Of a stretch of DNA of 64,000 nucleotides, positions 16,799 to 60,552 are shown piece by piece. A model generated the notes under the pieces. It was not told the DNA's origin, made no database searches, and saw only the letters and a program-made list of their open reading frames with translations. This DNA comes from Linnemannia hyalina (Eukaryota; Mortierellomycota; Mortierellomycetes; Mortierellales; Mortierellaceae). The position numbers were made by a program, and so were the translations under genes. Every line of letters begins with the position of its first letter. Position 1 is the stretch's first letter. The stretch lies in contig JAHRHY010000002.1 in assembly GCA_019671135.1 (NCBI GenBank), positions 2,108,001-2,172,000 of the forward strand, written 5' to 3'.

Positions 16799-19700
16799 AT
16801 GGCAGATTTCATCGTCAAGATTTCGGAAGACTCTGATGTTGAGGCTGTGCCACTGCTCTCCACAGATTATCAGGCGTCCTCGGCTGTTGTATCTTCCTCA
16901 CCAAGCACCATTGCGACCAGCGGAGCAACGGCACCATCCCGGCCGCCCAAAAGTATGGGTCGACAGAGCCTGCGCTTGTATAGTCCATAGGTCAACTTTT
17001 CAAAGCTGATACCTAACACGTCCTCTTTTCAATTTGACTTTGATTTAATAGCATATCGGTGGTATTTGCATGATTCTGACGACGACTCAACCCTAACTGA
17101 ACCTAGCCTCGCCTTGGACGACAAGTAAGTCTACTATCAACAACAACGGCTTGCCACATACGCTAAGTGGTGTTGGCCACAGATAGGTACATATGCTTCC
17201 TGAAAAACAACACTCAAATCCTCTCCCACTTCTTTTTTTGTTCTAGATACCATGAACCTGTCAAGATCAGAGCGTCCAATAGGTTGATCAAGGTAAGCTA
17301 GATAATCAGTTTGAGAAAATGACTTATGTCTGTGTTTTCAGTCTGCCATCGGAGAACCGAAATGTTTACCCTGTTCACTTCGTTTTTTATGTTTAGTGGG
17401 AGATCGTGCTGCCTTCGGACCGCGAGAAGGGAGAGTTCTACGATATCGTCCTGGGCGTGTCTACACGAAGCTTAGACATGGATGCCATCGAGTCCATCCT
17501 CATAAGAGTCGAGCAAGAGAGGGCGACGTATGGAAGTTTCGAGTGCGAGGTAAGTTTTGGCACATTTCCAGTTGACATTCTATTGCTCAGCGCTGCCAGA
17601 GTATAGTGCCGTTTCATATTCTAGCCAAATACCTTTGTGTTGTTGTCTTTTTTATAGGTTTTCAAACGTCATGAGTTAGAGCGAATGTCTATGGTGGATG
17701 AGGTGTACAAGGGCACGGACAAGGACACGGACAATGGTACGGACAAGGACAAGAACGGCGTGAAGGAAATGCATGGAGAGGAGATCGAGAAGAGTGTTAC
17801 AGAACTCAAGTGGAAATTGTTCACTCGATGCTACGGGTTTGGCGACAGAGTTTCGATCACCATGGAGATCAACACATGGCCGGAGCTGCCTTTGGAGTTC
17901 GGGTCCCTGGCCCTCCACTTTGTTGAACTCTGCACCGATTCAACTGTTCTATACAAAGCAGGTACGAGGATGCACATAATCACGTATTTATGGCCATTGT
18001 ATCATTTTTGCTATCGAAGTATTGAAAAATAACACCAAATTTACTTTTGCAGATCCACTCTTTAAAGAGCATTGTCCATATTCAACCTGGTTGGCCGACG
18101 TCAATCGCAGTGAATGCCACGAGTATGATTTACTGACAAGAACATTCAAGCGAGTGACACACACCAGCTATTCTGGTGATGGACGCTTTATGGTCATCAA
18201 GACACTTGCGGGTGAGGATGAGTTCTTGGAGGTATGGGATCTGCTGGACCACGAGATTGCTAAAGTGCTTGGTGGAGACAACTCTGAAAGCACCAAGGAG
18301 GCCATGGTAAAGCCATACCGAGCCACACCGGTCGCTTGGATGCCCTTGATTAGAGGTGGAGAAACCGATGTCTCCATCTCCTGGGACGGTTCGCTCGTGG
18401 CCCTCTTTGAAACAGAGAGGCCAGAAGCCACCGAGGACGACAAAAAAGATCCTCTTGAAAATTACGAGGGCCGCTTTGCGATCTACAAGTGCAGTCGGAA
18501 CGATAACGGAGCATCTGAAAAGCCATCGTCGCGGATGAGTCTTGTCCGACATGATGTTCAGCACACCTGTCCAGGACTCAAGAACTACATTGGAGAAGGA
18601 GTCTTTCACATAGTTGACAAGTCCAACCCGAATCCCAAGGATGAGCTCTTTGTCGCCTGCAACGGCATCACCATCGAAATCTACAGCACTTTCGAGGACT
18701 GGACTTACCAGCGTAGCATCGTCATGGACTCTGCCTTCGCCAGGCAAAACCTACAGTTCGACATGGCGTTTACCATGTTCAACCAGATCCAAGGACGCTA
18801 TCTTATTACCACCAACGACACGGTCGCGTTCACATTCGATATTATCCTGGGAACTCTGGTGTCCTTCTCAACGAACCTATCAAATGCCCAGGTCACCTTG
18901 ATGAACTATTTTTCCAGCGTCAGCGCGGATGGAGACTGGGTCGCGATCCCAGGTTATGGACACGTGAATGTCTACCGGACTCAAACCTGGACGTTGCAAG
19001 GGTCGTATGTCTTTGACGAGGTGGAGTCAGACGAGAGAGTTACAGAAGTAATGTTCATGGACAGTGGCAGACTACTCTACATCATGGTTGGGTTGATTGC
19101 GAATATGTACTGGCAAAGACGACCTGGATACATCTTGGATGTTGCAACAATGTCCGTCGTAGGTCGGGTGGCCCCCACGGGGTGTGATTCAGTGAATTTA
19201 GCGCGGCTGGATGGATCGGGCCAGGACCTGATTTGTTCTGGATATACAAAGCGGTGGGGCACGCGCCTTACGGATCTTCGAACTCATCGCTCTCCCACCG
19301 GAGATGTCAGTCGTTGCACTGACCGTTGCAACCATCCAGATTCCATCAATTCCGGGGTCGGGGAAGGAACGTCTCCATCTGGACTGCGCCTCAAAGTCCA
19401 AAGGACAGATACCTCTATCGGTTCACAGCTCAAGCGCGACAAGAGATCGTCTGTAACTGTGACGATGACGGATACGACTGGCACTCAGATCAAGAAAATG
19501 GTCGTCCCCCTGCCTAGAGGATCCACCCTCGAGCAAGCCGCCTTCTTTGCCGATTGTCGATATCTTTTGGTCGTTGCCAAAGGCACATTCATGGCATGGA
19601 GTGTTCCAGCAACGGCTGAAGGAGAGTTCCGCCTACAGATGATCCTCCAGGGAGAAGACGACAAGGAATGGACTATTTGCACCCACGGAATCGTTGGTAG

Positions 19701-22578
19701 GAGTAGCGACGAGGGCGAAGAGGGACGGCATCACGTCGGCCATGTCAGGCAACCGTTTACCGAACCTCTTGCGGCGGAGTTCTTGGTTGGACTGGGAAAC
19801 ATGGTGGCGTTCTACGAGCTCGCAGATGTTGGGTTGAGGCAGGATATTCTCCGCTACTATGGACGGCACATCAACTCTTACCCTGACAAGGCCAAAGAAT
19901 ACTGGAACGTGCTGGGCACTTGTGCCTTTATGTGGAGCCCGGACAATCACCACACGATGTCCCGCTTCATTAAGGACCTTCTGTCCTTTCCCGGAGTGCG
20001 CTGGGTTCCGCATTACAGCATGTCCATCGAGCTGAACCCCTTGGCTGCCCTTCTTGATAAAGCCAAAACAGAGCCATTTGCAAATGCCGGTGTTCAGATC
20101 ATCGTCGACTATTGTCTCCGCCAGGCAAAGGCAGCGCAGGACCCACATTTTCTGTCGCCGATCCTGCAATGTCTTCCCTCCATTGTCGATTCCAAGCAGC
20201 TATACTCCGCGATGGCCCGGACCATATATCGAGAGGTGGCGTTCTTTCCCGCTCAAGGTCGCGACTTCATCATCGACAACCACATCCTCATCAACTCGTC
20301 GACATTCCGATGGAAATTCTGGCAATCTTACCCATGGGGTCTTCACCAATACAAGGATCAAGTCCTGCAGTTCAACACCCACAAAATCCCCAATCCACCC
20401 AAGGGCAATTTCACCCGCGACATTTTCCAGGCATCGTTCGACCTGCTCTGGCACAAATCTGAGGATGCGGGGTCTCAGGATAGCTCTGCAGGATCACAGG
20501 GGGCAACCATCGCCAAAGCCTTGTTCTCCTGGCCCCATGCTATTTGGACGATGGTCTTGAGAAAGTGCACGCTGCGCTACAACACGACAATCGAGTGCTA
20601 TCCTTTCGAGCTCGAAGCACTCGACAACCCTGCACTCATGGCTCTGGTCGAGTACAAATGGTAAATTTCACTTCGTTCTCTTTGATCTCGCTTATTTTCA
20701 TGCGTTTCTTGAACTACAACAATGTATTGAATCTTTATTTTTCTCTCACGGATTCACGAAGGAACACGATTGGGTTCAAATACTGGTTTATTCGATTCCT
20801 TGGTGAAATGTGCTTCTACCTCATGGTTCTGACGGCCATATTTTTTCAGATATATGTGGAGCCGAATCTCGTGGAGGAGAACAATGGCAGGATCGATCTT
20901 GGTCTGGAGAGCCTCTTTGTTGCCATCATTGTGGTGGCGTTCATTTTCCTCTGGCTGGAGCTGGTTCAACTTCTGAGGGACAAACGAGACTACATCCGGT
21001 AAGTCAGCCAGATATAAGTTCATTGATTTGTGAAAGCATCCGCTGGTAGCACAAAATAGTAGGTAGAACTAACCACCTCTCGCTTTCCATGCCCAACACT
21101 CTTTTCTCGTGACCATCTCATAACAGATCCGTCTACAACTGGGTCGACTTGCTCGTGTTTTTATTGCCCCTTGCGGGTGCGATCAACCAGATCTTGATTA
21201 TCCAGGGCGTGATCGAGTTGGGTCTGAATCCTGGCCTTCTCAGTTTCTCGGTCCTTTTCATCTTCCTTCACTTTGTACGTTATGCCTTGGTTTACCATCA
21301 CCGACATACTTTGGGGCTCACAAAAACCACACGGATTCTAACCCACCACTCTCTTTTTCTTCGTTATTTATTTTTCTCTTAGTTGTTCGAGCTGCGAGTG
21401 TTCAAAGCTGTCTGTCACTTTGTATCGATCATCATCCGTGCCATTCATGCGATCCGCGTCTTCTTTTTCGTCTTCGCCGGAGGTCTTTTGGCCTTCTCTA
21501 TCGCTATCGTCCATCTCTACCATGTCTGTACTTCCGACGAGTGCTCTTACCTCACGGATGGGTTCTCAAGCAACCTGCTGCGTGCCTTTTCAATGACCTA
21601 TTTCATGATGGTAAGCACGGTTGATATGTAAATGCTGAACCAGCACAAGTTGTGTGAAGTAATTGAGATGCTAACCAATAAAAAATGGCACTTGTATTTT
21701 GTGACCCTGATAGGGGGGCAACTATGACCCGGTCGAAAATGGCTTCTCGGGCAACAACTTTGCATTCCACATGATGATGATTGTGTTCTTCTTCTTCACT
21801 GTCATTCTCATGTTGAACGTTCTCATTGGTAAAGATCTTGATTGTGTTGTGCCAGCTCACGTCCCCTTTTTATAGTATCATTTGTTTTTTTTTCTTTCTT
21901 GATTTCATCAGCTAACTATTTCCTTCTCTTTCCCGCTGCATAGCTTTGATCAACAATGCAATCGTCGATGGCGACCATACCTGGCGGCTGGACTGGCTGG
22001 AGTACCGTATGCGATACGTCGAAAGTGCTGAGAACATGACCTACGGCATCCCAGGTAAGTACTCGCACCCAGAAAAAAAAATATGCGATGGCGAGTCAAC
22101 GTAATGGGTCTATTTCCCAGTCCTTAACTGACAAATTTATATCTTCGCCCCCCCCTTTTTTTTTTTTACTTCGTCCATAGGTTTCCGTGAGATGGATAAC
22201 TTTTTCCCCGATAAGATCTACTACACGGGCACACCACAGCAGGTGCGCGATTACGAGAAGAAGACGAAAGAAATCGAGGAGCAGGGTGCACCAGATGCTG
22301 ACAGTCTGACCAAACAGGTCCCTGAATCTTCTTTTCCCACGACCTCGGATGTTGTTGTCGCTGCGGCTCCAGCCGAGAAATCGGAGCTAGTCCGGATGGC
22401 GACTCGTCGTCGTGGTCCAGCGACCGATGCTCAATTGACGCCGTCAGGAGAGACTGACCTGCGGAAGCAATTGGAGTCTGTGCAGGCGACCTCTGAGAAG
22501 CACATCGGCGAATTAAAGCTGCAGTTGAAGGAGCAGCAGCAGATGTTGGTCCAGATCTTGGCCAAGCTGGATCGATGA
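16799..22578 (+). CDS. Propeller-type N-terminus plus six-TM TRP/Ion_trans-like channel (paralogue P1)
   Basis: Twelve exons (16799-16952, 17052-17124, 17247-17292, 17397-17549, 17658-17961, 18053-20660, 20762-20998, 21127-21274, 21383-21610, 21714-21828, 21944-22054, 22181-22578) join in frame to 1,524 residues. Residues 1-75 are a divergent leader with the motif FIVKI. Residues about 90-240 form a beta-rich module with YDIVLGVSTR. Residues about 245-1112 are WD-like (SYSGDGRFMVIKT...LEVWDLLDH) and end in a conserved NPALMALVEYKW just before the membrane part. Six hydrophobic segments follow; the sixth (VILMLNVLIALINNAI) is the typical inner helix of TRP/Ion_trans channels, and a WLEYRM...ESAENM segment follows it where TRP channels have their gating helix. 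The tail contains DKIYYTGTPQQVRDYE and ends in a coiled coil (last 40 residues). Cation conduction and a sensing role for the propeller are inferred. It faces P2 tail to tail. Confidence 0.85.
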
Positions 22579-22613
22579 ACGAGGGATGGGTGATGGTGTT
22601 TTGGAGGACAATG

Positions 22614-22619
22614 AATAAA
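22614..22619 (+). terminator. Polyadenylation signal of P1
   Basis: AATAAA lies 35 bp after the stop codon of P1, within the 277-bp gap between two convergent genes. Confidence 0.6.
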
Positions 22620-22854
22620 AGTAACATATTTAAGATTCGACTGATGAGCTGATAGGAGTTGAGTGACACGGATACGAATGAGTGAGACCTGTGACCTGAA
22701 CAGTACACAACCAACCAGAAGACGTTTGCTGAGTTGAGGAGGGAGCTTAATTTCGTCAAAGGAGCAGTTACGGCCGGGGGAGGATAGATTCATGGATGTG
22801 TAAGCCGTAGACATGTTTATTTACTAAAGGGTCGCGCTTTGTCTAAAATCGGTG

Positions 22855-25800
22855 TTAGCTGTTCCTTCGCTCCTTCTCATACTCTTTAATCTCTTTCGCC
22901 GTCGCTGAGTAGTAAACCACATCCGCTATGATTTCGTGATACAGAGAACGTAAGAATTAGTATGAAGGATCTGCCTGTTGTCGTAGTCGCGCAAAAAGCG
23001 ACAACCAAAAAAAAACAGAAGGGCATAAAAAAAAGGGAGGGGGGGGGGGGGTATACCTGAAGTCTTGTAGGACATGTTCTCGGCGCTTTCGACAGTCTGG
23101 AGTCGATGCCTGAACCACTCTTGCTTCCACTCGTCCTGACCCCCTTTCTTTGACGCATCCTGAATCATAACTATGTAGTTTGACAATAGCAAGTCATTGC
23201 TATGATGCGTTAAAAACCAATGATGAGATCCACGATCGCGTTTCCATCTTCCTTGTCCCGCTTCTGTGGTATCAAGTAGGAGGAAACAAACTTACCGATA
23301 GCCATGTTGATGAACATGATGACATTGAACAAGAAGAACGTTAAAGCCAGGAAAAAGTTTGCCCAATGGTCGGTATAGAACAACCCACCGCCATCCCATC
23401 CACTCCGTCCGCTCTACACATCAATTATATAGCAAAAAGAAAAAAAGAAACGCGTGTTAGCAGACAAAAGATCCTGGTAGGAACATATATTCTTCCGCGA
23501 CACAGCACATGATGGATCATTTGTTACCAGTTGAGTTCCAGACACGGCTGCAAAGAAATCGGATGGCGTGTAACTCATGAAGGAGGAGGGATTCTGACAA
23601 GACGCAGAGTCAGGACAAGCGGGGATCATGTGCATAAACGCCATGACGAAACCCAACACGCCCAGGATGTAAACGCACAGGAATGCAGCGATGGATTCGA
23701 TCCCGCGGGTGGTGGACCAGACCACTCGGGCTACGGGTTTGAAAACTCGTAGTTCGAATAGCTATTATGGGATTGAAGGGTAAGTGATTGGGTTAATAAG
23801 GCTGACAGCGCAAACGGGGAGTTGCTTGCACGGGGAAGGGAGGAAGAAACGATTGAAATGTGCAAAGCAAACAACTAACTTACAAAGTGGAGGAGGACAA
23901 TGAGGACAGAAAAACTTAAGAACCCAGAGTTCTGTCCCGGAGGGGTCAGGACGCCCATCAGTGCGCACAGTTGGTTAAGACTTCCCGCAAACGGCAACAC
24001 CAGAACCAACAAGTCTGCGACATTGAACACCGATCTAGAATTGTCCCACAAAAAAAACAGTTAGCATCTCGACTAGATGAGCTCAGACCTTATACAAGAA
24101 AACAAAGAGTCGAAAATACACTTACCGAAAGTAGGAGAACAAGCCCTCTCGGAACATCTGGACGACTTCAACGCACAGAAAGACGGCGAACGAGGTGATC
24201 GAGATGTCAATGAACACCCCGATCCAGTTGTAGACTACAAGGCCCTCGGCGCCGACTTTGCTCTTGCCATAGATCTGTAGTGCCACTGCTAAGAGTACAA
24301 GAATGTAGTAGCAGCATCGGGCCATGAACTGCCTTCTCCAATATGCGAACCCTACTACACCCCTAACGAAAACAAGGATAAATAAATATGGCTGAAGTAA
24401 GTAATGAGTACAACTTGCGACAACCTCTCCAACAAAAAACAGCATATGCTTACCATTTGTACTCGGCCAGAGCCACAAGGGCGGGGTTGCTACACTCCAG
24501 GTATGCAGAAGGATAACACCGGACAGTGTCCTTTCTCAACAACTTGAAGTTGTGCGCAATCATCCTCCACAGCACACCCAACCACGAAAAGATCATCTTC
24601 CCATTGCCGCTGCTGCCTTGCCCGCCACCGCCACCGCCACCGCCACCAGTCACCGCTGATCCAGAATCAATCTTGTACCAGAGCATATCACTCGACGCAT
24701 AGTATAGGTCCTTCGAGAATTTATCTTTCCTGAGACCTAATCCTGCCCGCGTCCCGGCCCATTGCAGCTCCTGCTCCTGATCTGAAGGGCCGATAGGTAA
24801 CCGCACTGGGCGTACTGGGAGGTACGCGAATCCTCTGTACAACTGCGCTACGAACTCCTCCATGCCCAGAGGCTGCTCCTTGTCCACGACCATCAGTTCT
24901 TGAAGACTCCGGAGAATCGGCACCAAGAAATAATGGTCCTTCTCGATCCTAGCCCTTTGAAGCAAGTACTCGCCTAGAACTTGCGCCACTTCCATTGCTT
25001 GGGATTCCGTTCTGGCCTTGTTGATCATGCACAGGATTGGATTCCCTTCACCTTCTTCCTGGCCATGGACGACGGTATGAGGTCTCGGGACCCACCGGAC
25101 CGAAGGGTGAGTGTTCTCGAGCAGCAAGGCACGTAGGAACAAGACTATTGCCGAGTGTTTTGTGGGAGTCCAGTTCTCGCAGATGTGTGGAACGATGCTG
25201 CTACCGAGGTGATAGTCGGAGAGCTGGCAATTGATGTACTTCCCGACGTAGCGGAGAATATCCTGTCGTAGAGCGTCGTGGTCGTCGTCGACAGCGGTAA
25301 TAGTGGCGAGTTCAAAGATTTCGACGAGGTTAATAACACCGCTCAGGAAAATGCAAGGGTTGCCTTCTTTAATGGGGTCGAATATGGACCGATCGTAGAT
25401 CAAGCAGTCGTCCTTGTCCTGTTTGCCGCCGCCGTTGTTACTGATGCCGTTGTTTTTGTCGTCAGAGGCTTTCCACCCATAGAGCTGGCTATGCGGACAA
25501 ATTTTCCACGTGGTATCACTCTCACCATGCTGAGCCCACCGTAGAATAAACCCTCCTCGTGCAGACTTCGGCGTGCTCCAGACCATGATCCACTTGTTCA
25601 GAACAATCAATAGATACGAACATCCATCCTTGCCGCCCACAAACCTCGCGCTGCGGAAGACCGCTTCTCTCGGAAGAGGTGTCGACATCCTCTGAATGAG
25701 AAGACCATTGCTGTCACGAGCTTCCACGGCGATAAAGGGCAGCGTCTCGCGGCGTCCGTTGATGACGATTGGTTTCATGATCGCCTCGGCCCTGAACGTC

Positions 25801-28456
25801 ATTCCTGCTGCTGGCAAGAACACCTCCTTCCTCCCGGCAGAGTTCTTGAATGACGAGACTAACGTGCAGGATGCGTCGCAAAGATCCCGCAACTTGGTTG
25901 GCGATTGGATGATCCGGTTCTGAAGGTCAAACAAGGACACTTGAGAGCTCCCGATGCAATAGACCTGTGGGTTCGTCCAACTGCCACCCATCTTGAACGA
26001 GAATACATCCGATCCTTGTGACACGAAACGCTCCACCACCGCCATCGTCTCAGTGTTGATTATGTAACCCTTGTTCTTGCGATAGAATGGAACCTCCTCC
26101 GAGTCCGAGCCAACGCCAACACCGACGACGATCTGGGTATCGTTTCGAATAAAATGAACATCACCAATGGCCTCCGTGAGCTCCATGCTGTCAAAAGCGC
26201 GTGTGCCAGCCAAGGTCCAAGTCGCCGTCCAGAAGAGATCGATGTGTTGTCGTCCAGGAATCACAATCAGCTGCCCGTTTGAAGACATGGCAGAAATCCT
26301 GCTGATGTTATATTTTTGTTCGGGTGTGAGACCTGTGAAAGACGAGACACGGACACCTTGCTCGACATCCCATGTGCTGACCATTTGGTCTGCACCAGGC
26401 TCTTCGACGACGAAGTAACGTCCACGGAGCTGCTTGGACAGGGCCGAGTAGACGTTGTGGATGAACTGTGGTCGGTTCCGGGCGGGATTCATGAGGATCG
26501 ATCGGACATGAGTCCACTGTTCATAAACGCTGTAGATCTCGACCGAGACACCGTCGCAAGTGATAAACATCTCATCTCTGATATCCTGACCCATGGCCGC
26601 AATAATGTGAAACTGAGCCCTCCCGTGAAAATCCTCGAGTCCTGCGGTGGCGCGTATCCTCTCAGGATAATGCCTCACAAGCCCAGATCCTGCAACAGCT
26701 CCTTCTGCCGCCTCAATCTGATTAATGTCGCACCTGTAAAAAGTACTGGTGGTCCTGTAGTTCTTCCTTTCATCTGGGGAGAGGCTCAACGGCTCCAAGT
26801 CCAGAACCACAAGCTGCGATCCATCCAAAGACAGTACCAACTCCAAGTTCCACGTCTTCATCGTCGCAGGAAACTGCATCCACGCCACCAGCGGCGACCC
26901 AGACCCCTCTTTCTCCTCCTTCAAGGATACAGCTTTCTCCGGCGTCGATGGTGATACTGCAGTTAGATCGCGGAAGTTCCAGAGCTGCAATGAAAATGTT
27001 GTCTCGCCCTCTTTCCGTCCAGCGGTGGTTGCGACAACGACATGTGAGCCATCCTTCGACACACAGTAGTCGCTGATGATTTGCGGGTACTCCGCCGTGG
27101 TCGAGTCCAGGAACTTGTATCCTGTCCTGTTGATATCGACACAGTGAATGAACGGTTGATGCTCCCTGTACCTCGGATCTAGATAGTGATGAAAAGCAAG
27201 ATATTAGATACATTCGCAATTTCGTCCGCAATTGTGACAGCGCACGATACAGTAAGTTAGTCATGTTCTACCCTTGGAATAATAGTCTCGCGCGCCGGTC
27301 ATGATCTCCACGAAATGCAGCCCAAACGATCCATATTCTGTTGACGACGAAGCACCACCGACACTAACGCATTCGTCATCGGCATCGTCATGGTCATCGC
27401 CGTAATGACTCGCACCAAGATCCCGGGTCTTGACCTCTATGGCCACCTCCAATGCCGATTCCGACAGAAACACCTTCTTATGCAACCTCCACTTCCAAAC
27501 TTCACTATTGCCCTCCTCCGGCTCCTCCTTCCCTGCAAGGTCCGCGTTCTCGCTATCATATTGTAAAGCAAGCACCCTCCTGGATAGCCGTACAAGTTCC
27601 TTTGATGTTATGACCTAATTGGCCAGCATGAACGATGGGTATTAGCAAACAGCCACTAATTATATATTCCTTAAGGCATATCCTTCTTATAATCCCCCTT
27701 CCTTATTTACCTCTGATTGTACATTCTTGGCGCCAGTGACTCGGTTGTATGTGACGATAATAGCCTCGACGGTGTTAAGGTTCAGGTCCCGAGTCGACAC
27801 GCCCAGAACTATGTCGTAATGTGTCTCCCGTGCTGTGCTTTTCGGTATCGTGAACTATGACAACGTGTACAGAGGAGAAAGGAAGGTAAGCGAGAGGGAA
27901 GACAAAGTTCGTTTTTGTATAATTGCATTTCTATGCTCTTGCATTTACTTTGGTGTACTTGGTTGCAGCATGGATAAGGATTGTAGGTTGGATCCTGTCG
28001 TTGAACAAAGAGAGAGTGTATGTGAGAATGCATGGTTATGTGTCACAGGTATGGTGTGTGTTGAGTATACATGTCCGCTTGATTGCTTTATCACTTACTC
28101 TTCTTGTTCTACTACGGCGAGAACGAGCTCTCTACGATCGACGTGGCCCTCCTCCTCCAGCACCTCCTCTTCCTCCTGGTCGTCAGCAATGCGTCCACCC
28201 CGTCTGAAGTACCATCTCGTTCCTGAATTAACAAACATTGTTAAAAAAAATTAATTAGTGATATGCACGTTGATCAATGGTCGAATGGAACAAAAATTAT
28301 CAATATCAGGAACGGGACATTACGAGCTCCGTTGTTGTTGCTGCTGCTGGTGAGTTTGTCGAGGTTGCTGATTGGAGGTTCTGTCCTTAACTGCGGCGGT
28401 TGCTGTGAGGGTATCGGTGCCAAGTCATCGAGGATTACAATAACATGTTCCGACAT
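22855..28456 (-). CDS. Propeller-type N-terminus plus six-TM TRP/Ion_trans-like channel (paralogue P2)
   Basis: Twelve exons on the minus strand (28456-28324, 28222-28099, 27994-27949, 27854-27711, 27614-27272, 27178-24454, 24362-24126, 24034-23884, 23761-23528, 23413-23296, 23170-23057, 22925-22855) join in frame to 1,479 residues with the same layout as P1. The first exon begins MSEHVIVILDD, comparable to the MADFIVKI start of P1. The third exon is 46 nt as in P1, and the first transmembrane exon is 237 nt as in P1. Conserved pieces include HYDIVLGVSTRDL, SVRWVPRPHT, LRQDILRYVGKYIN and NPALVALAEYKW. Differences: a poly-Gly linker shortly before the membrane domain, a diverged sixth segment (FNVIMFINMAI in place of LNVLIAL), and a tail of only about 24 residues after the ESAENM element, with no coiled coil. 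An intron near 23037-23051 contains a long G-run. Channel function is inferred from the family layout. Confidence 0.82.
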
Positions 28457-33229: not shown

Positions 33230-33237
33230 TATAAATA
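33230..33237 (+). promoter_or_regulatory. TATA-box-like element of the PQ-loop gene
   Basis: TATAAATA is followed by a CT-rich initiator region and lies about 330 bp upstream of the ATG at 33569, leaving room for a long pyrimidine-rich leader. Confidence 0.55.
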
Positions 33238-33534
33238 CTCTCTCTACCACCCCATCCTCGCCCTTTTTTATCTTCACTCTTCACTCTTTTCTTTATACCG
33301 TTTTTCCCCGTCTGCTCAGCAATTTGTTCATAGTCCTTCTTTCTCCTCTTTTTCGCCGCTGAACCCACTCTCACCCCAGACAACAACAGGAACTCTTTTG
33401 TTTATTCCTCTTCTTTTTGATCTCTCTTTTTTCTCTTGTATATAACTCATTCATCGTTTTCGAGATCACCCCTTCATTCTCTTTTCTCACTTGTCTCCCC
33501 TTTTCATTCTCCTTCAACAACATCAAAAACTGCA

Positions 33535-33562: not shown

Positions 33563-33565
<3 letters not shown>

Positions 33566-33568
33566 CCG

Positions 33569-46865: not shown

Positions 46866-49005
46866 GGAGAAAAGAAAAAAGAAGAAAGAAAAGAGAAAAG
46901 AAGGAAAGAAAGAGTGGGCGAGTGTTTATGTTTGTGTTGGCGATGAATGAGAGAGAATGAGTTGGGGCGAGGGGCGAAGACGAAGTAGAAGGTAGACTTG
47001 AAGAAGGCAACAGCATAAAACAACAAGTACACAAGGTCAAACAGAAGTAAGAGAGAGGGAGGGCGAGGGAAGAGGGGAAAATCGAGAGACAGAGTACAGA
47101 GAAAGGAAGAGGAGGGCTAAGACGCAAAAAATGGACGATGACGTGCAGGGCTGCCTCTCGCTCCTTAAGGAAAAGTCATGTCATCGCCGGACGATCAACT
47201 GGTCAGGTGATGAAATAAATCGTCGACGAAGCAAGAAACGAACGTACTTCTTACGCCTGGGCCGTTCTTGTTCTTTGAAAAGAAAGACATGGCCTTCGCC
47301 CTGATCGTTGTCCAACGGCCAAGCAGGACACGTTAGAAACGCACGCAAAGGAGCTGCGCAAAGCAAAACCCTCCTCAAATGCACATCTTTTCTACCTTTA
47401 AGTCCTAATCCTGGCCCATGATCCTGTTTCTTTGCTCACTACGCCCAGCGTCCTTGCTTGGCCAAAGGCACATCGCAACAATGGCTGCCAATAAAATGCA
47501 TGCTGTTAGAGAGAAATACTGTAGACATACCACAATGCTTGAAAGAGCGATATCTTCTGAGTGGATTCTTATCTATCTGCTACGCCATTGGTGGTTCTGT
47601 ACTACAGGAGTTGGAGAGCTATCACAAATGAAAAGGAGTGAGCGCACCAGCCTTCCTTTTTATACATTTTCCTGCGAAGTTTTGGCGAAGACATAAGACT
47701 TCGACCAGGCTAAGCCCGCCTACTCTTATCCCTTTTTATAAAAGACGTTGTCGGTGAACACGTCAGGATCCCTTCCTATTTATTCCTTCTATTTTCTTCT
47801 CCATTTCTTCTTCGCCTTCGTCTTTCTCCCTCTTGCTTTCTCTCACCTCCTTTCTCTCACTTCCCATTTGTCGCCTATTTCCTTCTACCTTCACATCCCA
47901 ACTCTTTTTCACTCGCCAGCTGACTATGTTACTATGTTCCATGGAAGGATCTGATAGACAAGAAAACGCCCATGGCTACCTCGCATAGCCCTGCTCACCG
48001 CCACGGCCACCTTTTCTCTTTATCTGCAAAGTAAGCATGTCATGCATTCCCGTTCCTCCCCAATTAAAAAGAAGTTTCTCTCATCCTACGTTGTGGTGGT
48101 GAAGTGTATCCCGCCAAGCCCGTCCCGCCAAGACCTTTCTCTGTTCAAAGCGCCCTTATTTTACTCACCCATCATTCTACCCTCCCAGGGCGCAATACCC
48201 TGCCATCCATGTTTTCGATATATCTCTTTTTTGTCCCTTTCCAGTCTTCCTTCTTTCTTCATTTTCCTAAGCAATATGCAACACAACACATACACACAAC
48301 ACATACACACGACACATACACACACGTACATGCACACACGCACCCACACTGACATCTGTTCATTCGACCAACCCCGTCCCATACGCCCTCGCCAATCTTA
48401 TTAGAAGAGTCGACAGAGAATTCCCTCTCTCACCCTACTTGCCTGACTTGGCACGGTTCGCTCTCTTACTTTCATTTTGTTTATTGCAATTTTTCCTTCA
48501 GTTCGTCCATCTGTTCCCTGTCCGTCTGGGCATCTCCTTTCTTCCGCATGACATGCATGACAACAAAACAAAGCAGAGCAGGCGGGACAGTGTACAAACT
48601 CGAGCATTTTTGCTGTCTCACGACGTGGAATTATAAGTCTTCGCCAAGCAAAAATTACGTCTCTCGTCCCTGTAGTTCTGCACTGCGGATATTGAGACAG
48701 GAGGCACAGCGAGGGAGGAGGAAGGTAAGATTCTGTTACACGTATGAGCCAGCAACAGACCATGAAGGGAACACACAGACACAGCTAACCGTCGCCTTTT
48801 GTGCAAGAGTGTTGTTGCAACCATCATATACCAACATACCAACACACTAACAGGTCTTTTGTTCTGAGGTCGTTTTTCATCGCAAATAAGTATGATAGTT
48901 TATTATAAAACGTTTTGGGAGGGGTATAAGGTTATAAAAAACATGAGAGAAAAGATACTGTACAAGAACGAAGCTATGACTATGCAAAATAATAAAGGAC
49001 TGCTC
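46866..49005. other. Intergenic region, 2.1 kb
   Basis: No supported gene. The first 250 bp form the pyrimidine-rich leader of ZF1 read on the minus strand. From about 47740 to 48420 the plus strand is CT-rich and includes a CA-rich minisatellite (48284-48350). The frames at 47418-47696 and 48042-48404 have no recognisable features. Confidence 0.5.
48284..48350. repeat. CA-rich minisatellite
   Basis: Repeated ACACATACACAC-type units of about 13-15 bp with small variations occur in an intergenic region. Confidence 0.75.
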
Positions 49006-50247
49006 CTACTTGCCAACCCATCCATGAACAGACTGACAATGTCTGTTCCTGGGTTCAGTCCTCTTGAACCTCAGGGAGCAGCTAGGGTCAAGGCAAGGAT
49101 AGGGCTTATCCTCAAGCTTGTTGCTATGGATCCGTTTGTGGCGCTGCATGTCATACACGCGAGCAAAGGTCTTGTCGCACTGGGAGCAAGCATGGGGTTT
49201 GAGGTTTGAGTGGGTCAGGATGTGGGACTGGAGGTTGCAGGCGCGGGTGAATTCGCGCTGGCATTCTGGGCAGGCGTGGACGCGCTTCTCGCCCTTCTTG
49301 GCACGGGAGCGGGGGCTTCTGGAGGATTGGGAAGCGGGCGATGGGGGTGGTGGTGGAGATGTGGAGAAAGAGGAAGAAGGGGAAGAAGAGAGTGAAGGAG
49401 TAGGAAGCAGCTGGATTGGGGTAGAGGAGATCATGGGGACAATAATGGGGGCGACGACGACCTCGTTGTCGCCATCATTGTCACAGTCGCTGTCACCATC
49501 GCACTCGTCGTCATCATCATCGTTCTCGTCGTCGCTTGACTCATCAACGTCCATGCCCACTGATGCATTCTCGACGGGTTCGTCTTGTACAGATACAGGG
49601 AAGAGAGGCACTTCTGAGGGGATAGCTGTATACTCGGGCTTGGGGCACGGGGGGGCAGCGACAAACATGGACAGCTTCTGGTACTCCTCGACGTCAAAGG
49701 GGACATCGTTTTCGACTCCAAAGTCCAGGAACCCACAGTCAAAGTTGAGAAGGTCGTCGTCGGGGTTCTCGAGCTGCTGTTCGTAAGGAGAGGAGAGCTC
49801 CAGGCCAGGGTAGTAGTATTCTTGACGGGTGTCGAACTTCTTGTTGTCGTTGTTGTTTCTGTTGGTGCGGTTGTTGAGAAGGTTATTGTTGCTCTCGACC
49901 AACTCGTCAAAGCTGGAGTAGAGGACGTTGTGGCGGTGGTGGTGACGGAGCGCATGGGGGTTGCTGAAGACAACAGCTGGTTCAGGGGTGGCAGTGTTGT
50001 TGCTATGGGTGTTGAGGATAAGGTTCTGGGTGGCCTCGGAGGTCATGTCGATGAATGGAACGGGGCCGTTTAACAACTGTTCGAGCGAGGCGGCGGACAA
50101 TGCGGCAGCAGCAGAGGTCTGGGTAAAGTCGAACAACGAGTCCATCATGAGGTCGTCCTGTCGGTCGGGGATCGGCTGACGAGGGAAGGAGAAGGTGAAT
50201 TGGTTTCGGCCGCGGTGGAGCGCGTCGAGTCCAAAGTCGAATGCCAT
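49006..50247 (-). CDS. Three-finger C2H2 zinc-finger protein (ZF2)
   Basis: Single-exon gene for 413 residues, starting MAFDFGLDALHRG. The N-terminal two thirds are disordered, with Asn runs, and a strongly acidic block (about residues 225-260, mostly Asp) lies before the fingers. A basic linker (SRAKKGEKRVH) leads to three C2H2 fingers at about residues 320-408: CPEC...RACNLQSHILTH, CSQC...RVYDMQRHKRIH and a third with CLDPSC (four residues between the cysteines) then RTEPRNRHCQSVH. The protein ends five residues after the last finger. The finger helices match those of ZF1 at almost all DNA-contacting positions, so both may bind the same sites, but the acidic block is N-terminal here and C-terminal in ZF1. 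Nuclear transcription regulation is inferred from the domain. Confidence 0.9.
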   Translation of the reverse strand: MAFDFGLDALHRGRNQFTFSFPRQPIPDRQDDLMMDSLFDFTQTSAAAALSAASLEQLLNGPVPFIDMTSEATQNLILNTHSNNTATPEPAVVFSNPHALRHHHRHNVLYSSFDELVESNNNLLNNRTNRNNNDNKKFDTRQEYYYPGLELSSPYEQQLENPDDDLLNFDCGFLDFGVENDVPFDVEEYQKLSMFVAAPPCPKPEYTAIPSEVPLFPVSVQDEPVENASVGMDVDESSDDENDDDDDECDGDSDCDNDGDNEVVVAPIIVPMISSTPIQLLPTPSLSSSPSSSFSTSPPPPPSPASQSSRSPRSRAKKGEKRVHACPECQREFTRACNLQSHILTHSNLKPHACSQCDKTFARVYDMQRHKRIHSNKLEDKPYPCLDPSCSLRFKRTEPRNRHCQSVHGWVGK

Positions 50248-51168
50248 TGAGTTGAGGATGGGGGGAGGTAAAGATGACAGAGAAAATAAGTGGAAGAGGA
50301 AGTGGTGGCAGTAGTGTTGTTAGCGAAGGAGGGGGTTTGAATAAGAAAGAGAAAGAAGGATAAAGATGGTGGTTCTTGGGTAATAAGGAAGTTGATAGTC
50401 AATGGTTGTGAGAAGGGGAGAAGTGGTTGTGGAAGAAAGAAGAGAGAAGAAAGAAGAAAGAGGAAAGAAGAAAGAAGAAAGGAGAGGATAGAAATAAAGA
50501 AAGAAGGAAAGGTATCAATTAGACACAAGGGAGGAAAGAGAAGCCTCAATTGCTATGAGCCTGGCAAAGCTGAGCAGGGTGGCCCATGGTATCATCGGAC
50601 AATACGATGGCACAGCAAAGGCACACACAAACCAGCCACAATGCGAAATTGGCTTGTCCTGGCAAAGAAGTGAGCCAAGACAACCGTGTTTTGACCAATC
50701 AGGTTGCAGCGTTGGATTCGCCAGAAAAGATGGAAGAGAGGAAAGAAAGAGTCAGGTCCATCCAAAAGAGAGCAGCAGTGTGGACGGACCCTCCAATTTC
50801 TTTCCCTTTTTCAGACGAGAAAGAAGGCTATTGAATTTGATGGCACAAAACCCAACAACGGTTATCAGTCATACCTGATGGTTGCTTGCTCTTGCTCTTG
50901 TCGTTGACTATCTTGTCTTACCTGCCCTGTGTTAGTCCACCAACGACTGGTCCATACGTCTAATAATGATTCAATCACTCGAGGATGTGTCCTCCCTCCG
51001 TCTACTTTGTATGGCTAAAATAAAAAAATCCAGACTGATACCACCACACCACTACCACAGCCTCCACTTCTTCTCGTCCCTCTTCCTTCCTCTTCCCTTC
51101 CTCCACCCTCTGCCATCGCCTCTTTCTGCATCCCTTCCTTTTCATTCTTACTTCCTATTTCACCACCC
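50248..51168. other. Intergenic region, 0.9 kb, divergent promoters
   Basis: The gap lies between the divergent starts of ZF2 and P3. The left third is purine-rich on the plus strand (AAGAAAGAAGAAAG runs), the ZF2 leader. The right end, from about 51040, is CT-rich and is the P3 leader. No gene is supported. Confidence 0.6.
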
Positions 51169-53660
51169 ATGTCATACTCATCCCCCACATCTCCCTCTCG
51201 TAAGTAGTCCCTCTCCCACACTCCAATTATCACTCTCGTCGACTCTCTCCTCTTTGAAGCTGACCCAACCACACTCGCCAAACCTCTTCACGTAGGCACG
51301 CGGAGGTACTATGAAAGAAGCGCCACGACCCCGACCGAGGAAACATACTTTGCCGTCTGGAGGTACATTTGCTCGGCAGTCATCATAGCATGTGGATGTT
51401 CATGGGCGTGTCATAAACTCAATTATACTCATTCGACTTTGACTAAACTACTGCGCTGGGCATCTCTTTAGCGCTGTACCGCCCATGACCCTCACCTCGG
51501 ATACAAAGTACATTAGGGTGAGTAGCAAGAGGCGAAAGTGCAACATAATGAGAACACAAGTGCACAAATATATATATTAATACGAAGCTCTTTCTTTCAT
51601 AGTGGAATGTCCCAGTGCCGACGAATGGTGGCGCATACCGCGACATTGTGTTGGGTGTCAAGGTCAACAACCTGCAGTTTGCCAATATCGAGGCGATTGT
51701 AGTCTCTGTTGACCAAACCGTCAATGAAAAAGTGATCTTCACCTGCGAGGTAACCGGGAACTTGTTGTTACATCACATATCCACAAATCAAATAATGCGG
51801 TCGGCTACTTACGACACATTTTGTGTATGCCGGTGTAGGTCATTACTCCAATGGAGCTGGAACAGATGTGCGCAACGGCCAATGACAATACCACACATTA
51901 CTCGGACTACTACGGCGACCATGGAATCATGAAATGGAAGCTGAAGGAGCGACTGCTGGAGTCTGAGGGCGAGCTCCATGTGGCGATGGAGGTCAAGACT
52001 TGGGACGGAGCACCTCCGGACTATGGATCTATTGAGATCTACTGGGTCGAGACACACATCAACTCACGGGCGTTCTACCAACATGGTAACAGGCCCAGCA
52101 AGTTATTTAATTTGATGTTCTTTTTTGTAACTTCCTTATGTATTTCGCATCTAATTATTGTTACTCCCAATCTGGCATATAGACCCTTTGTACAGTGAGC
52201 ACCGACCATATTTGTATTCACTGGCCGTCGACAACACAGGACGACCAGAGATTGACAATCTTGGTCGTGGAACAAAGCTGGTCGAGTCATACGTCTACTC
52301 CAAGCAAGGAGCACATGTACTGGTCAGTGTGCGAACCACACCAGGGCTCATTATTCAGCTCTGGCAGATCCGATATCTTCCCGCCTCTGACCCACGATGC
52401 GTCCGCCAATTCGACACTTTAAATCTGAAGGAACAGGATGACGAGAAGGCGTTTCAACCCAAGGTCGTGGCGTGGATGTACCTTGCTGATGTGCCAAAGT
52501 TTAAATCGATTGACCTTGTTCTGTCGCATGAGGGGACGCAACTTGCGATTGTGGATGAAAACGTTCCTGTTCAGGATGGAGGCGAAGAAACGCAGCTATT
52601 AGGAGGTGACGAAGGGGAGGCAGCTGAAGGAGAAGGAGAGGAGGAAGAACAGGAGGCAGCAGAGGAAGGTGAAGATGGTGAAGGAGAAGAGACATCGGAC
52701 AAGGAAGAAGATGAGGAAGGGGAAGGAGAAGTGAAAGAAGTGAATACTGTAGAAGGAGGCAAAAATGATAGTGAGAGCTGGACGGCATTCTACAGGTTCA
52801 GTCCCGACATTATTGGAACAGGAGAGACACCGGCAGGAGCAACATCAGGATCTGGACTGGTGCGGATGAATGTCGAAGAGACCTGCCCTGGCCTCGCTAA
52901 CTTTTTCGGCCGCTCAGAATTTCACATCGTCGCAACAACGGATCAGGATGTCAAGGACGAGATCTTGGTCGCGTGTGATGGTGTGACGATCGAGGTGTAC
53001 AGTGTCTTTGGGGAGTGGAATCATGTCCGGACGATCGTCATCGACCCCACAAGGACCAACCCTAGCTTCAGGAGAAACGTCTTTGCGGCACTGTTTAAGC
53101 AACTGCGTGGGAAATACATGTTGCTGGTGGATGCCGACGGGACCGAGGTGACGACGTGGAACATCGAAACCGGCGAGGCGGTGGCATCCAGCACCCGATT
53201 TGGCGTCTCCGAGTTCTGGGCACTGCGACATCTTGCAAACGTGACGCGGGATGGACGACTAGTCACGGTTCCGGGACACCGAGCGCTCGAGATCTACGAA
53301 ACAGCTACGTGGGATATGGTGGGGTGGTACCAGTTCCCGGACGTAGGGTATGGCGAGTTTGTGAGCGAGGGGTTGTTTTTCCGAGGCGACACACATATCA
53401 TGGTGACAGTCGATTCAGAGCAGCGGCCGTTTTATCGCAACAACCGCGGGTTTATTATTGACCTGGGCGATATGACTGTCGTGGAGTACTATGCGAGTGC
53501 GGGACATGGGCGGTTCGAGTTGTTACCCAAGATGGATCCAGAGGAGGAGCAGTTGTTCTTGGCGGTGGACACGTCTAGTGCCTGTGTGTTTTCGATGGAA
53601 GGGCGACTACTTATGGCTCCACCTCCTCCACAGATTGACGACGATTCACAAGGCCCATAG
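51169..53660 (+). CDS. Truncated propeller-channel paralogue without membrane part (P3)
   Basis: Six exons (51169-51199, 51296-51362, 51472-51517, 51603-51749, 51839-52085, 52183-53660) join in frame to 671 residues. They correspond one to one with the first six exons of P1, P2 and P4, including the 46-nt third exon, and carry the same pieces: RRYYERSATT, YRDIVLGVKVNNL, WKLKERLLESEGELHVAMEV, DPLYSEHRPY and VACDGVTIEVYSVFGEW. The frame ends with TAG at 53658-53660, about where the others continue for another 400-500 residues of WD-like sequence and then the channel. The last residues (MAPPPPQIDDDSQGP) are not conserved. No membrane segment is present, so a soluble cytosolic protein is expected. 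A highly acidic insert of about 60 residues (52600-52750, mostly Glu) is unique to this copy. AATAAA lies 12 bp after the stop, arguing that the short form is a settled gene and not only a broken one. Confidence 0.8.
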
Positions 53661-55034: not shown

Positions 55035-58000
55035 ATGCATGGTGAGTGTTCTTTGTGTGCTAAAGATAGTACATATGGGTCAGTTATATTTGCTGCAGGT
55101 CGTGGTAAAAAAAAGGGGGAGAAAGGGGACAATGCTGGACGCACTAAATCCATGTGTGTGTCTGTGTGCCACGAGGGAGGACAGCAAAGAAAAAATGAGA
55201 AGAGACGGGGTTGTCGTAATTCCTTCTCGACCCAGTCCTTAACAAACAAAGAAAAAAAATGGCTGGACACATAGGTAGAAACACATGGGGTCAGTTCGTT
55301 TTAGTATGTAAGAATGAGCTATTCTGTCCCTGGTATTTGACAAACATGAGTATGGTTGCTGACCTTTTTCTCCTTTTTCCTTTCATTGTTACCGCTCATA
55401 AGCACATCGATGGTTCTTCACGGACACGGGATCAGGGTCCTCTTCTACCTCTCGACACCTTCAACTCGTCAATGAGTAAAGAGAATGGGAAGCTGATTTT
55501 TTTTGTTCGTCATTTGTGTAACAAAGAAAGCTTTCATCGTTTGTGTTGACGGAGAACTGCCATTGCTGCTTTCTGTGATCACTTTTTCTAGGAACAAAGG
55601 ACCTGTCGCCATCAATGTTGTTACCAACACAAACACCCAGTCCATTGAGGTAAACAAACGCATTACCCGAGCACAGTTATATTTTGTTCATCAGCTGGTT
55701 AGGTAACGCACAAAAAAAGGATAGCAAACACCTTCCTCTTTTTCCCTGCATTTGTAGTGGCAAATCTCACTTGGCAACCTCCCTCAAGGGCCCTTCGAGC
55801 TGGTTCTTGGGATCTCGTCACAGGACCTGGATCTCAATGCTGTCGACTCTATAACTGTTGGTTATATCAATGGACCCAACCAAGCCCTCAGACGCCCCAG
55901 TGAGGTACACAGGAACTGCTCTTTTTTTTTTCTGGGAGGGACTATTTTGTATTTGTGCCCCAACATGCGAACGAACTGACAAGGACTCTCAATTTTTGTA
56001 GGTGATTCCGAATATAACTCTTCGCAACCTCTTTGCGACACTCCCAGTTGGGGACAATGTTCTACGGTGGAGGCTCTACGAACAGATCGCAATCGAGTCT
56101 GGAGCAAAAGGGGCGATCAGTGTCATTTTGACCATCGAAACCTGGAAGGGTGTATCGCTGAACCCTGGAGCCATTGGATTACATTTTCTGGAGCTGCACC
56201 AAGACTCGCTCACAATGTATCGGGATGGTATGTTTATATGGCTACAAGGCATATCAAGCAATGAAGTGATTGCACTACATATCTGCAGAATGCTTACCCA
56301 GGCCCATTTATTATGTTAGACCCGAGCTACAAAAAGCACCATCCGTTTACTTGGTGCATCGATGTCAACCTCACGGTCGACAATCCTCCCAATGGCACTG
56401 CAAAGGAGATCATATCCTACCACTTCTCCGGTGATGGTGCCTATGCCGCCTTGCTGACATTTTCTACCACAGGTCAGCATTTGGAAGTCTACCGCATCGA
56501 ACAAGATTGCCCCTCCTCACCACTCACAGCATCATGGGTTCTTTCGCCATACTCAACTACAGTGTCCGACATATCCGTCTCCTGGAACGCGACCCAGATC
56601 GTGGCATTGGACCTCACTGACAAAAACTTCACTGCCATCTATGTTCGTCAGAATAGCAAACACGGGACCCGAGACTTTGCTACCAACGCCCCAGAACTAT
56701 CAGAGGAGCAGTACATTGCTAACGAGCTCCACCAAGACCTCGGACGCTATAGCGGTAGAGGCATGTTCTACGTTTCTGGAAGCCTGAACAAGATCCTCAG
56801 TGACGAGCTCTTCGTTACTTTCGATGGAATGACTTTGGTAAAATATTCTATTTGTGGGAGGTGGGAAGAGGCCACAACGATAACGATTGGTGGACCGAAG
56901 GACTCGATTGACTTCTACCCGTACTGGAAGGAGCACCTACGAGGAGACTATTTGGTGTTGCTGAACACAGAGAGAGCCTACGTGTCTATATGGAATCTCA
57001 GGAAGGAATGCTCAGTGACAGCAATGGACATACCGACCACAATATCGGATAACCCGTACATCGTTGCTTGCTTGTCAGAGTGTGGGTGGCTTTTTGTGAT
57101 GGCTACAAGGCGACATATCGACGTTTACCTCACCGAAACTTGGACTAGTCTTGGATCTTGGTGCCTTCCAGTCACCGAGCAGATGGACATATCTGATGTT
57201 TACTTTACGGGTGAGAGTGATTACATCACCGCCGACACTTCGAATCTTGCGCCCGTCATTCACACTCAAGGATATGTCGTCAACATCAACACCATGACTA
57301 CCGTGAACAAAATCCACTGCAGGAACCTCCATCCCCATTCGCTTTTCGCCCTCGACTCGGTTGATCGCTCAGCACCCATACTGTTGTACCAGACCCAGAC
57401 GACATTGGGGGCTCTTCCATATGCCGATCGTGTAGTGAGAATATTTTCCAAGGCGGCGACATTGTGTACCCACGACTGCACTCCTCCCCTATTCTCCCAA
57501 CCTACATTGTCGCCTATTTTACAAGCCGAGGTTGTAGAACGAACAATCGGACCCTGGGATAGACTGATCACACTGCGCTTCATCTCCATTACAACAAGGA
57601 TGCCCACTGATGTCGCCGTTGAGGTCATGTCCGTCCCGCTGCCAAAAGGATCCGAGTTGCTGAGTTTGAGGTGGACATTGGTCGATGACCACTACTTCTT
57701 GGTCGTGGCTATGAGTTCTTTGGTTCCTGTGTGGAAGATCCAGGCGACACTGAATGACGAGTACGAGTTGCTTTTGGTTAAGGAAACTACAACTGATGCG
57801 GACTGGAGGATCTGTCAGCACCATCAACTGCATCGACATGACAGGATCACTAATATTATCACGGCAACGAACTTACTGGATCCACGCATACACGATCTGA
57901 CTGGCTTCCAGGATGGCATCGTTCAGTTATCAAGGGTATTCAAGGACGCCGACGACAAGTCAAAGCGTGGCATTATACAACACATGGAGCGACACATAAA

Positions 58001-60552
58001 CCATGGCCTTGATTCAAAGAACAACTCAGCAACCGTACTCACCCGCCTCTGCTCTTCATGGTCACCAGAGTATCACGAGCACTTGTTGGCTTTCATCCAC
58101 GCGCTCTTTGGATCGGCTTCCTTCCGCTGGATACCAACTACTGACATGAATCGAGAGACCAACCCTATCTCGATCCTCCTCGGTCATCTGAACGCTAGTG
58201 TTGTGGTTGCAGACATTGTTGAGATCATGATCAGCTATTGTGTCCACCAGGCCAAAGCCGACAGCGATCTACGATTTCTCGATCCGGTCTTTCTTTCTCT
58301 ACGAGCCGCTGTCAAGTCCAAGTATATCACCCCCGGACTCCTGTCGAAGACAATGCGGACCTTTGCCCATTTTCCTGCCCGCGACTTCCGTTTCGCGATG
58401 GACCACCACGCGTTCGCCTTGCGCATTTTCAAGTCCCGCGAACGGAAAAAGATGCTGCACGAACGGAAAAATCCTACTCTGTATTTGACATCCAAGAACG
58501 TTCACAGGACGGGTAACGAAAGACTGACGCCTCACCTCTACGTCGCATCTTTTGACATGCTCTGGGTCATTGAGGAGATACCATTTCCGAGGCAAAGACC
58601 TCTTGCTATTCTCCTTCGCATCCTTCTCTTCGTCACGCTTACAACCAGGAAACGGTATGTCTGCCATCCTTTTAGTCTGAGAGACTTGGACAACCCTGCA
58701 TTGGCTGCCTTGATCCGGTTCAAATGGTAAGTAATTCCAGTGCTTGACTGAACTCGCTTTAGTTGCGTTTGCTTCCTTCTACCTTTTCCTAACTTTTGTT
58801 TAAACTCCTCCAGGACACAATTCGGATACGCCTATTGGATATACAGGATCGTGTTCTACAGTTACATTGCATGGTTCTATTCAGCTCTCATTCTCAGCAA
58901 TCAGCTCTCCGACAAAGAAGATGATGGGCCAATGGGAAATATCTACAACGCCAATGTATGTCTGTCATGGTTGTTTGCTCTGAGCTCCGCTCGCGACCTG
59001 GTGGTATTGATGTGCCTAAAAATGAAGCCTCGAGAGTAAGTGTGCCGATATTTTCAAAGAATGTACGAGAACCTACTCGTTCATTATGTTTTCCCGCATG
59101 ATGACACCTGCCACGACGTGCGCACACTGAATTTTTTTTTTTTTTTAAATGTCAGCTTTGTGTACAAGATTGTGGAGATCCTTGTCGCTTTCGTGCCTTC
59201 GATTGCACTAATGGCTATCGCGTTTTCGTTCAACTTGGACCTGTATTACTTCGTCACGGCACTTTCAATTCTGATACTTCTGCTGCAATTGGTAAGTACA
59301 GAAGGGTTTGTTCCCATCAGGCGAGCAAACTATATTCACCAAAGGTGTCATTCAGTCCACTTACGCGCCTTCCGATAACAATTGTATTTTTTTTTTTCTT
59401 CAGCTGTTCGAGTTTCGAGTGATGAAGACTGTAGGTAGCTTCCTGTCGGTATTGTGGCGTGCGCTCGAGTCGGTCAAGATCCTACTTGCGGTCTTTGCCT
59501 ACATTATCGTTGCATACGGGGTTGTCTTTTATTATTTGCAATACCTGGCCTGCGAGGATGACAAGTATCCCAAGTTACAGGACAACAACTCGGCCGCTTT
59601 TTGTGAGCATTACCACGACGTACTTTATGACTGTGAGTAGTTTTTGCCTATGAGACTTTTTCGCTGGAGAGGAAACTGGCATTCAAAACTTTTCTGCGAC
59701 TGTCTTCTCAATTGCTAAAACATTTTTTTTTTTTATTTCTTCTTTCTTTGTCTAGGGAGGGATGTATGCTTTGGTCGACGAGAAGATCAAGACAGGAGAC
59801 TGGATCATAAATGTTATTATGGTCACCTTTCTCTTTATCGTCACGATCATGCTCAACATCCTGTTCGGTAAGTGAGCTAAAGGCATGCAAGAAAAACACA
59901 TAGCTCTTGCTTTTTGAGTGGCCATTGCTCGCCACTAACTTTTTTCACTTTTTTTTTTTTTTTTTTTTTTGGGCCGCCGATGAATGATAGGGACGGTGAA
60001 CCACGCATTCGGTAACCACGACCGCACGTCAGAACTGGCGTGGATGGAAGACAGGATGATCTTTATGATGAGAGCAGAGAACCTGTTCCGGCGGATAACT
60101 TGTAAACGTACTCAGACTACAAAAAAGGCATCTCGTTCCTGGGCTCTCAAGTTTCCATCGTGTTCCCTCTGCCTTATTTTTTTTGCGTTCGCTAATCTAT
60201 GCGTGTTTTTTTCTTTTTTTCTTTTTTTGTCTTGCTCATAGATCTTCGAAACAATGGGGCTTGGTTCCCAGAGAAAATCTACTACACAGCAACGCCTCAG
60301 GAGGTCCGCGATTACATACTGGAATCACAACGACTAGCCAAAAAAGCAGCGGCCGCTGCTCTCCCGCTCGAGGATGACACCCAAGACAAAACGCCAGTGT
60401 TGAATGAACCTGCCGAGAACGCTGTCACTACCGAGCAACAAGTTTTGGAAAAGCAGCAACCTTGGGTGGATCAATTGAGGGTGGACATGAGAGCAGAGTT
60501 CAAGGAGGAGTTGAGGGAGCAGCTGGAGGCCCAGAATGAACAGATCGCATAG
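55035..60552 (+). CDS. Propeller-type N-terminus plus six-TM TRP/Ion_trans-like channel (paralogue P4)
   Basis: Twelve exons (55035-55041, 55403-55475, 55592-55649, 55758-55904, 56002-56227, 56320-58726, 58814-59035, 59156-59291, 59404-59632, 59760-59867, 59991-60101, 60242-60552) join in frame to 1,344 residues from the first in-frame ATG. Exon 2 is 73 nt as in P1. The layout is that of P1: AHRWFFTD, FELVLGISSQDLDL, the WD-like region (YHFSGDGAYAALLTF), SFRWIPTTDMN, NPALAALIRFKW, then six hydrophobic segments. The sixth is IMLNILFGTVNHAF, followed by WMEDRM...RAENL and PEKIYYTATPQEVRDY. The tail ends in a predicted coiled coil (FKEELREQLEAQNEQ). The acceptor of exon 10 is ambiguous: TCTAG at 59755 or GGGAG at 59759, with donor alternatives that both keep the frame and change the pore loop. 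Channel activity is inferred. A relic duplicate and P3 lie directly upstream in the same orientation. Confidence 0.8.

Follow-up and report, generated by a model that had tools for sequence, protein, structure and literature searches.

Predicted propeller and TRP-type channel parts joined in a gene family of Linnemannia hyalina and other Mortierellaceae

Results

Three twelve-exon genes, a truncated copy and a relic

The window analysed here is a stretch of 64,000 nucleotides from the fungus Linnemannia hyalina (GenBank assembly GCA_019671135.1, contig JAHRHY010000002.1, positions 2,108,001 to 2,172,000 of the forward strand). It carries three genes, P1, P2 and P4, whose predicted proteins join a long N-terminal part containing a WD40-like propeller region to an ion channel of the TRP superfamily, together with a truncated fourth copy, P3, and a short relic. 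Positions below are those of the window.

16799..22578, plus strand: P1 gene, 12 exons, 1,524 amino acids
16799-16952, 17052-17124, 17247-17292, 17397-17549, 17658-17961, 18053-20660, plus strand: P1 exons 1-6
20762-20998, 21127-21274, 21383-21610, 21714-21828, 21944-22054, 22181-22578, plus strand: P1 exons 7-12
22855..28456, minus strand: P2 gene, 12 exons, 1,479 amino acids
51603..53660, plus strand: P3, N-domain and first propeller, then a stop and no channel; matches exons 4, 5 and the first half of 6
51603-51749, 51839-52085, 52183-53660, plus strand: P3 exons, open for 623 residues
54418..54510, plus strand: relic of a P4-type channel exon 7, 93 bases
55035..60552, plus strand: P4 gene, 12 exons, 1,341-1,344 amino acids

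The 12-exon structure that an earlier reading of this DNA (the original prediction) had given to P1, P2 and P4 is borne out by spliced models in which every intron is GT/AG and the only stop is terminal, two readings being possible at the P4 exon 9/10 junction. The best match of P1 in a protein search is L. hyalina KI688_005989 (P0001), 96% identical over its full length; it reads as the same gene, and it differs from P1 where pieces of the exon 6-8 sequence are missing from the record. The counterpart of P4 is KI688_005997 (P0199). Coding sequence is open over at least 4.4 kb in both P1 and P2, which are arranged tail to tail, their stop codons separated by 276 bases (22579-22854). P3 and the relic were rightly assigned to the same family, P3 by its exon matches and the relic by tblastn (48% to P4 residues 1023-1053, E 2.6e-4); judged from its sequence, the P3 product would be a free propeller.

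Shared introns and motifs

When P1, P2 and P4 were aligned with 15 relatives, nine of the 11 introns agreed among the three in both alignment column and phase. For intron 1 the positions are at most two columns apart, in equal phase, and for intron 9 at most three columns apart, with a different phase in P4. Intron 6 interrupts one codon of a conserved EYKW block (RFKW in P4) alike in the three genes. The exon lengths said to recur each do so in two copies, with other copies differing: 46 nt in P1 and P2 (58 in P4), 73 nt in P1 and P4 (124 in P2), 237 nt in P1 and P2 (222 in P4), and 147 nt in P4 and P3 (153 in P1, 144 in P2). The RWVP/RWIP and NPAL.AL..KW blocks are kept in P1, P2 and P4, as had been claimed; DIVLG is kept in P1, P2 and P3, and P4 has ELVLG instead. 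Identity is 29.6% between P1 and P2, about 26% between P1 and P4 and 22% between P2 and P4. Because introns are shared in column and phase at such identities, P1, P2 and P4 are, beyond chance, one family with old introns.

Layout of the predicted proteins

The features of P1, and the pore exon of P4, are as follows.

17272..17942, plus strand, spanning introns: P1 N-terminal beta-rich domain, amino acids 85-237 (profile match; coordinates converted by hand from the exons)
17952..19254, plus strand: P1 first WD40-like propeller region, amino acids 241-644 (profile match, 468 bits; fold via relative P0036)
19261..19725, plus strand: P1 second beta-rich segment, amino acids 647-801 (profile match; 11 strands in the P0036 model)
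19855..20337, plus strand: P1 helical region, amino acids 845-1005 (profile match; overlays TRPV cytosolic sequence before S1 in a relative's model)
20605..22020, plus strand: P1 channel, with pre-S1, S1-S6, pore helix and TRP helix, amino acids 1095-1381, end of exon 6 to exon 11 (Ion_trans 4.6e-12; profile 435 bits; fold via relative P0142)
21596..21728, plus strand: P1 pore motif TYFMM/GGNYD, interrupted by intron 9
22021..22266, plus strand: P1 conserved segment with IYYTGTPQQVRDY after the TRP helix (profile match; strand in a relative's model)
22454..22575, plus strand: P1 C-terminal heptad-like helix, presumed coiled coil (from sequence; long helix 678-752 in the P0142 model)
59404..59632, plus strand: P4 exon 9, whose frame slips by one ahead of the pore helix relative to orthologues

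The 900-1,100 residues described earlier as beta-rich and WD-like do contain a propeller but are only partly propeller: the propeller profile covers about 400 residues of P1, some 155 more are beta-rich, perhaps as part of a second propeller, and about 160 are helical. The fold predicted for P0036 includes a closed, multi-bladed WD40-type propeller, whose nearest structural matches among the 50 listed are an Elongator Elp123 entry, Atg18/WIPI, G-beta and Sec12; COPI beta-prime and IFT-A are among the top rows of its whole-chain overlays.

As for the membrane part, Ion_trans exceeds its cut-off in P1 (4.6e-12) and P2 (4.1e-9), in both cases detectable only once the exons are spliced. With a channel profile built from 15 relatives, the best 60 of 165 matches were all TRP channels (top 3.4e-10), and the channel sequence is homologous to the TRP superfamily. 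PKD_channel reached 16.4 bits in P1, against a cut-off of 22.4, and was not listed for P2 or P4. No channel appeared among the 50 VIA rows for the P0036 model, a list that one domain can fill, and a second model, that of P0142, was therefore used. Both P0036 and P0142 are predicted to have S1-S6, with a pore helix in the S5-S6 stretch and a TRP helix following S6, and P1, P2 and P4 align to the latter. Its helical region, not identified as ankyrin, overlays, in geometry only, the cytosolic part of TRPV that adjoins the TRP helix.

A simple expression for TYF..GG-like strings finds the family pore pattern in 156 of 225 relatives (most commonly TYFFMGGRY, in 39), at least one of the 156 looking like a chance match. 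P2 reads VSGTQL/SGRSGWDG where P1 has FSMTYFMM/GGNYDPV, and its tail is not matched by the tail-strand profile. In P0200, P0201, P0202 and P0204 exon 9 opens into TYFMTGG; the window P4 has this motif in another frame, and the GenBank model P0199 looks as though it took another exon 9 junction. Either the break in the P4 pore exon is recent or the exon is mis-assembled. For L. hyalina SCG-10, the published genome (51,558,230 bp, 52 contigs) was assembled with HGAP4 from PacBio Sequel reads, no second technology being named (PMC8444964), and the one-base slip may for that reason be an error.

Range of the family

The genome searched comprised 51,506,068 bases in 50 contigs, the window being C12:2108001-2172000. 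By exon-wise searches and our own grouping, which includes some fragments, family exons occur at no fewer than 14 places: C12 has eight of them, four in the window and another four between 1.98 and 2.31 Mb; a further three are on C9, and C6, C16 and C22 have one apiece. Three protein searches gave 108, 340 (the best 120 listed) and 27 matches, those giving 108 and 27 scoring only the candidates with the most shared words; among the matches listed, every one named by organism belongs to a genus that taxonomy places in the Mortierellaceae. The family had been called local, and with exons on other contigs and relatives across the Mortierellaceae a purely local family is rejected. Elsewhere in the genome, YVC1_C (TRPY1-type) exons lie at C2:1144620-1145746 and C9:1256992-1257300, outside the propeller-channel loci, and dense strong Ion_trans exon matches at C7:719920-724641 and 848301-852917 are perhaps, at a guess, four-domain or other large channels.

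We fetched 225 distinct relatives and ran six family profiles on them at E 1e-5, the proteins scored being family members alone. Matches numbered 153 for the N-domain, 210 for propeller 1, 199 for beta segment 2, 222 for the helical region, 219 for the channel and 208 for the tail strand. Propeller 1 and channel occur together in 204 relatives, and 139 match all six profiles; 15 have the channel without propeller 1 and six the reverse, many of these exceptions being short predictions. P1 itself matches six profiles, P2 five, and P4 six whichever junction is used (channel, 115-121 bits). In a midpoint-rooted tree of 205 sequences (relatives with P1, P2 and P4), the three fall in separate clades of nine, 16 and 12 tips, respectively, each with support of 1.0 and each including other species. 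Over full length, Mortierella sp. GBA39 and M. hygrophila have proteins 91% and 87% identical to P1, and P4 is 73-85% identical to P0200-P0204; the best relatives of P2, in a set fetched without a P2 query, are only 33-38% identical. One relative, P0173, named BLOC-1 subunit 2, has PF10046 joined to the channel and may be a gene-prediction merger.

Other long open frames of the window, named by eye, resemble MFS-type transporters (3262-4992 and 37275-38576) or, on the minus strand between P2 and P3, have C2H2 zinc-finger-like ends (45255-46925 and 49006-50319).

Discussion

A proposed sensor joined to a channel

We consider it probable, at roughly 0.6, that P1, P2 and P4 are TRP-superfamily cation channels of the Mortierellaceae in which an N-terminal propeller gates the pore by way of a helical region, a coupling region and the TRP helix. 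The reading builds on the gene models, the shared introns, the TRP homology, the folds predicted in relatives and the presence of both parts in 204 of the 225 proteins; the idea of a sensor that gates the channel is a plausible proposal. In order along the chain there would be a beta-rich domain, the WD40 propeller, more beta-rich sequence, the helical region, a coupling region resembling that of TRPV, S1-S6 with its pore helix, the TRP helix and a coiled-coil tail. Four subunits would form one cation pore, and their propellers might bind a cytosolic protein or a membrane lipid; binding would then pull on the TRP helix through the helical and coupling regions, opening the pore to Ca2+ or other cations. 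On its sequence P1 looks fully equipped for such a role, whereas P2, with its changed filter, could be a modulatory subunit, and it is tempting to speculate that P2-like and P3-like products modulate P1-like ones.

Several observations weigh against this reading. The joining of propeller and channel holds in sequence profiles and in the predicted structures of relatives, but P2 lacks the family pore motif and the assembled P4 loses it. P4 has no Pfam match of its own and falls below the Ion_trans cut-off, and an exon-wise Ion_trans search of the genome gave 18 hits, none of them on C12. In the window proteins every Pfam propeller family listed lies under its cut-off, the best curated WD40 family score being 21.9-22.9 bits (P2) against 496.3 for that model. 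The structure models are monomer models of the relatives P0036 and P0142 rather than of P1, P2 or P4; the P0036 propeller model has an overall pLDDT of 67.8 with long disordered stretches, and Foldseek overlays it poorly over the whole chain (TM-scores of 0.08-0.17 by query length in 50 rows). All 225 relatives are gene predictions, and the six profiles were built from 28 of them, P1's own record P0001 included. Finally, the fusion is known here through gene models and predictions, and the tetramer, the coiled coil, the cation flow, the ligand and the gating are inferred.

The propeller might instead serve only as a scaffold, tethering the channel to partners in trafficking or signalling, as propellers of the COPI, G-beta or Atg18 type do, and play no part in gating. 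Its best structural neighbours (Elp123, Atg18/WIPI, G-beta and Sec12, with COPI beta-prime and IFT-A near the top of the whole-chain overlays) are docking proteins; yet the cytosolic part meets the channel via the region that, in geometry, overlays the TRPV cytosolic part at the TRP helix, and we regard pure docking as unlikely, though it is the alternative to be taken most seriously. Another reading, that most of the window copies are decaying duplicates without a function today, is suggested by the truncation of P3 with a relic behind it, by the frame slip in P4 and by the lost pore motif of P2. It is nevertheless improbable in view of the long open frames of P1 and P2 and the close identity of P1 and P4 to proteins of other records, and the possibility that the P4 slip is an error of the PacBio assembly (PMC8444964) weakens the case for decay in that gene.

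Nor does an ordinary vacuolar TRPY1/YVC1 channel with a long N-terminus fit well. Some relatives carry a precomputed YVC1_C annotation (PF23317.2), but P1, P2 and P4 have no PF23317 match at E<=1, the annotated relatives P0028 and P0075 show no YVC1_C at E<=0.1 in a Pfam rerun, and the YVC1_C exons of the genome (three matches, on C2 and C9) lie apart from the propeller-channel loci; plain YVC1 identity is rejected on these grounds and is very improbable. Least probable of all is that gene models have wrongly joined separate soluble and membrane genes. Predicted models are what the fusion is known from, and half-proteins do occur among the relatives (15 and six of the two kinds). Both halves nevertheless stand in one predicted protein in 204 of 225 relatives, the spliced models have no stop between the halves, and intron 6 splits the same EYKW/RFKW codon in all three genes. 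The two-gene reading was rejected on this shared codon split and on the fused relatives.

Going beyond gating by the propeller, it is possible, at somewhat less than even odds, that these proteins form an undescribed TRP subfamily in which WD40 propellers stand where a TRPV-like channel would have ankyrin repeats, with a Mortierellaceae-wide expansion that includes pore-altered and propeller-only copies, and in which propeller binding of a protein or lipid directly gates ion entry. These soil fungi may be turning internal signals into ion currents via propeller-TRP fusions. If true, this would be a new type of sensor for TRP channels, an example of how a channel fold can exchange its cytosolic module, and a large private set of ion channels for a family of soil fungi; the natural copies that lack the pore motif or the channel would be ready comparisons for the role of the propeller.

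Comparison with known channels and propeller proteins

No description of a propeller-TRP fusion was found among the open-access titles and abstracts listed, which does not prove its absence. An expansion of TRP-CC has been reported in Neocallimastigomycota and Glomeromycotina in a paper whose main text lacks the term 'wd40' (PMC8778642), and a survey of cation channels in pathogenic fungi likewise lacks the term (PMC3410928).

In contrast to TRPV1 and TRPV3, P1, P2 and P4 have no Pfam ankyrin family at E<=1, and a propeller is predicted in the N-terminus. The filter of TRPV is of the GMGD type; that of the P1 family is instead MGG, and an acidic residue stands three places further along. TRPM2 is the best match to the channel alone (3.4e-10, among the best 60 of 165); the two also align over a W-containing segment that follows S6, and the presumed C-terminal coiled coil is a further likeness to TRPM2 and its relatives. 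TRPM channels have TRPM N-terminal domains and a Nudix domain, neither of which was found in a Pfam scan of the window proteins. With TRPY1/YVC1 of yeasts the family shares being a fungal channel of the TRP superfamily and the YVC1_C annotation of some relatives; we know of no propeller in TRPY1.

From the other side, a propeller followed by a helical region is also the layout in COPI beta-prime, IFT-A and Elongator, none of which, to our knowledge, ends in an ion channel. Propeller domains are associated with a cation channel in the auxiliary subunits of CatSper. There, however, they are extracellular and on separate subunits, whereas the propeller of the P1 family would be cytosolic and part of the same chain as the pore.
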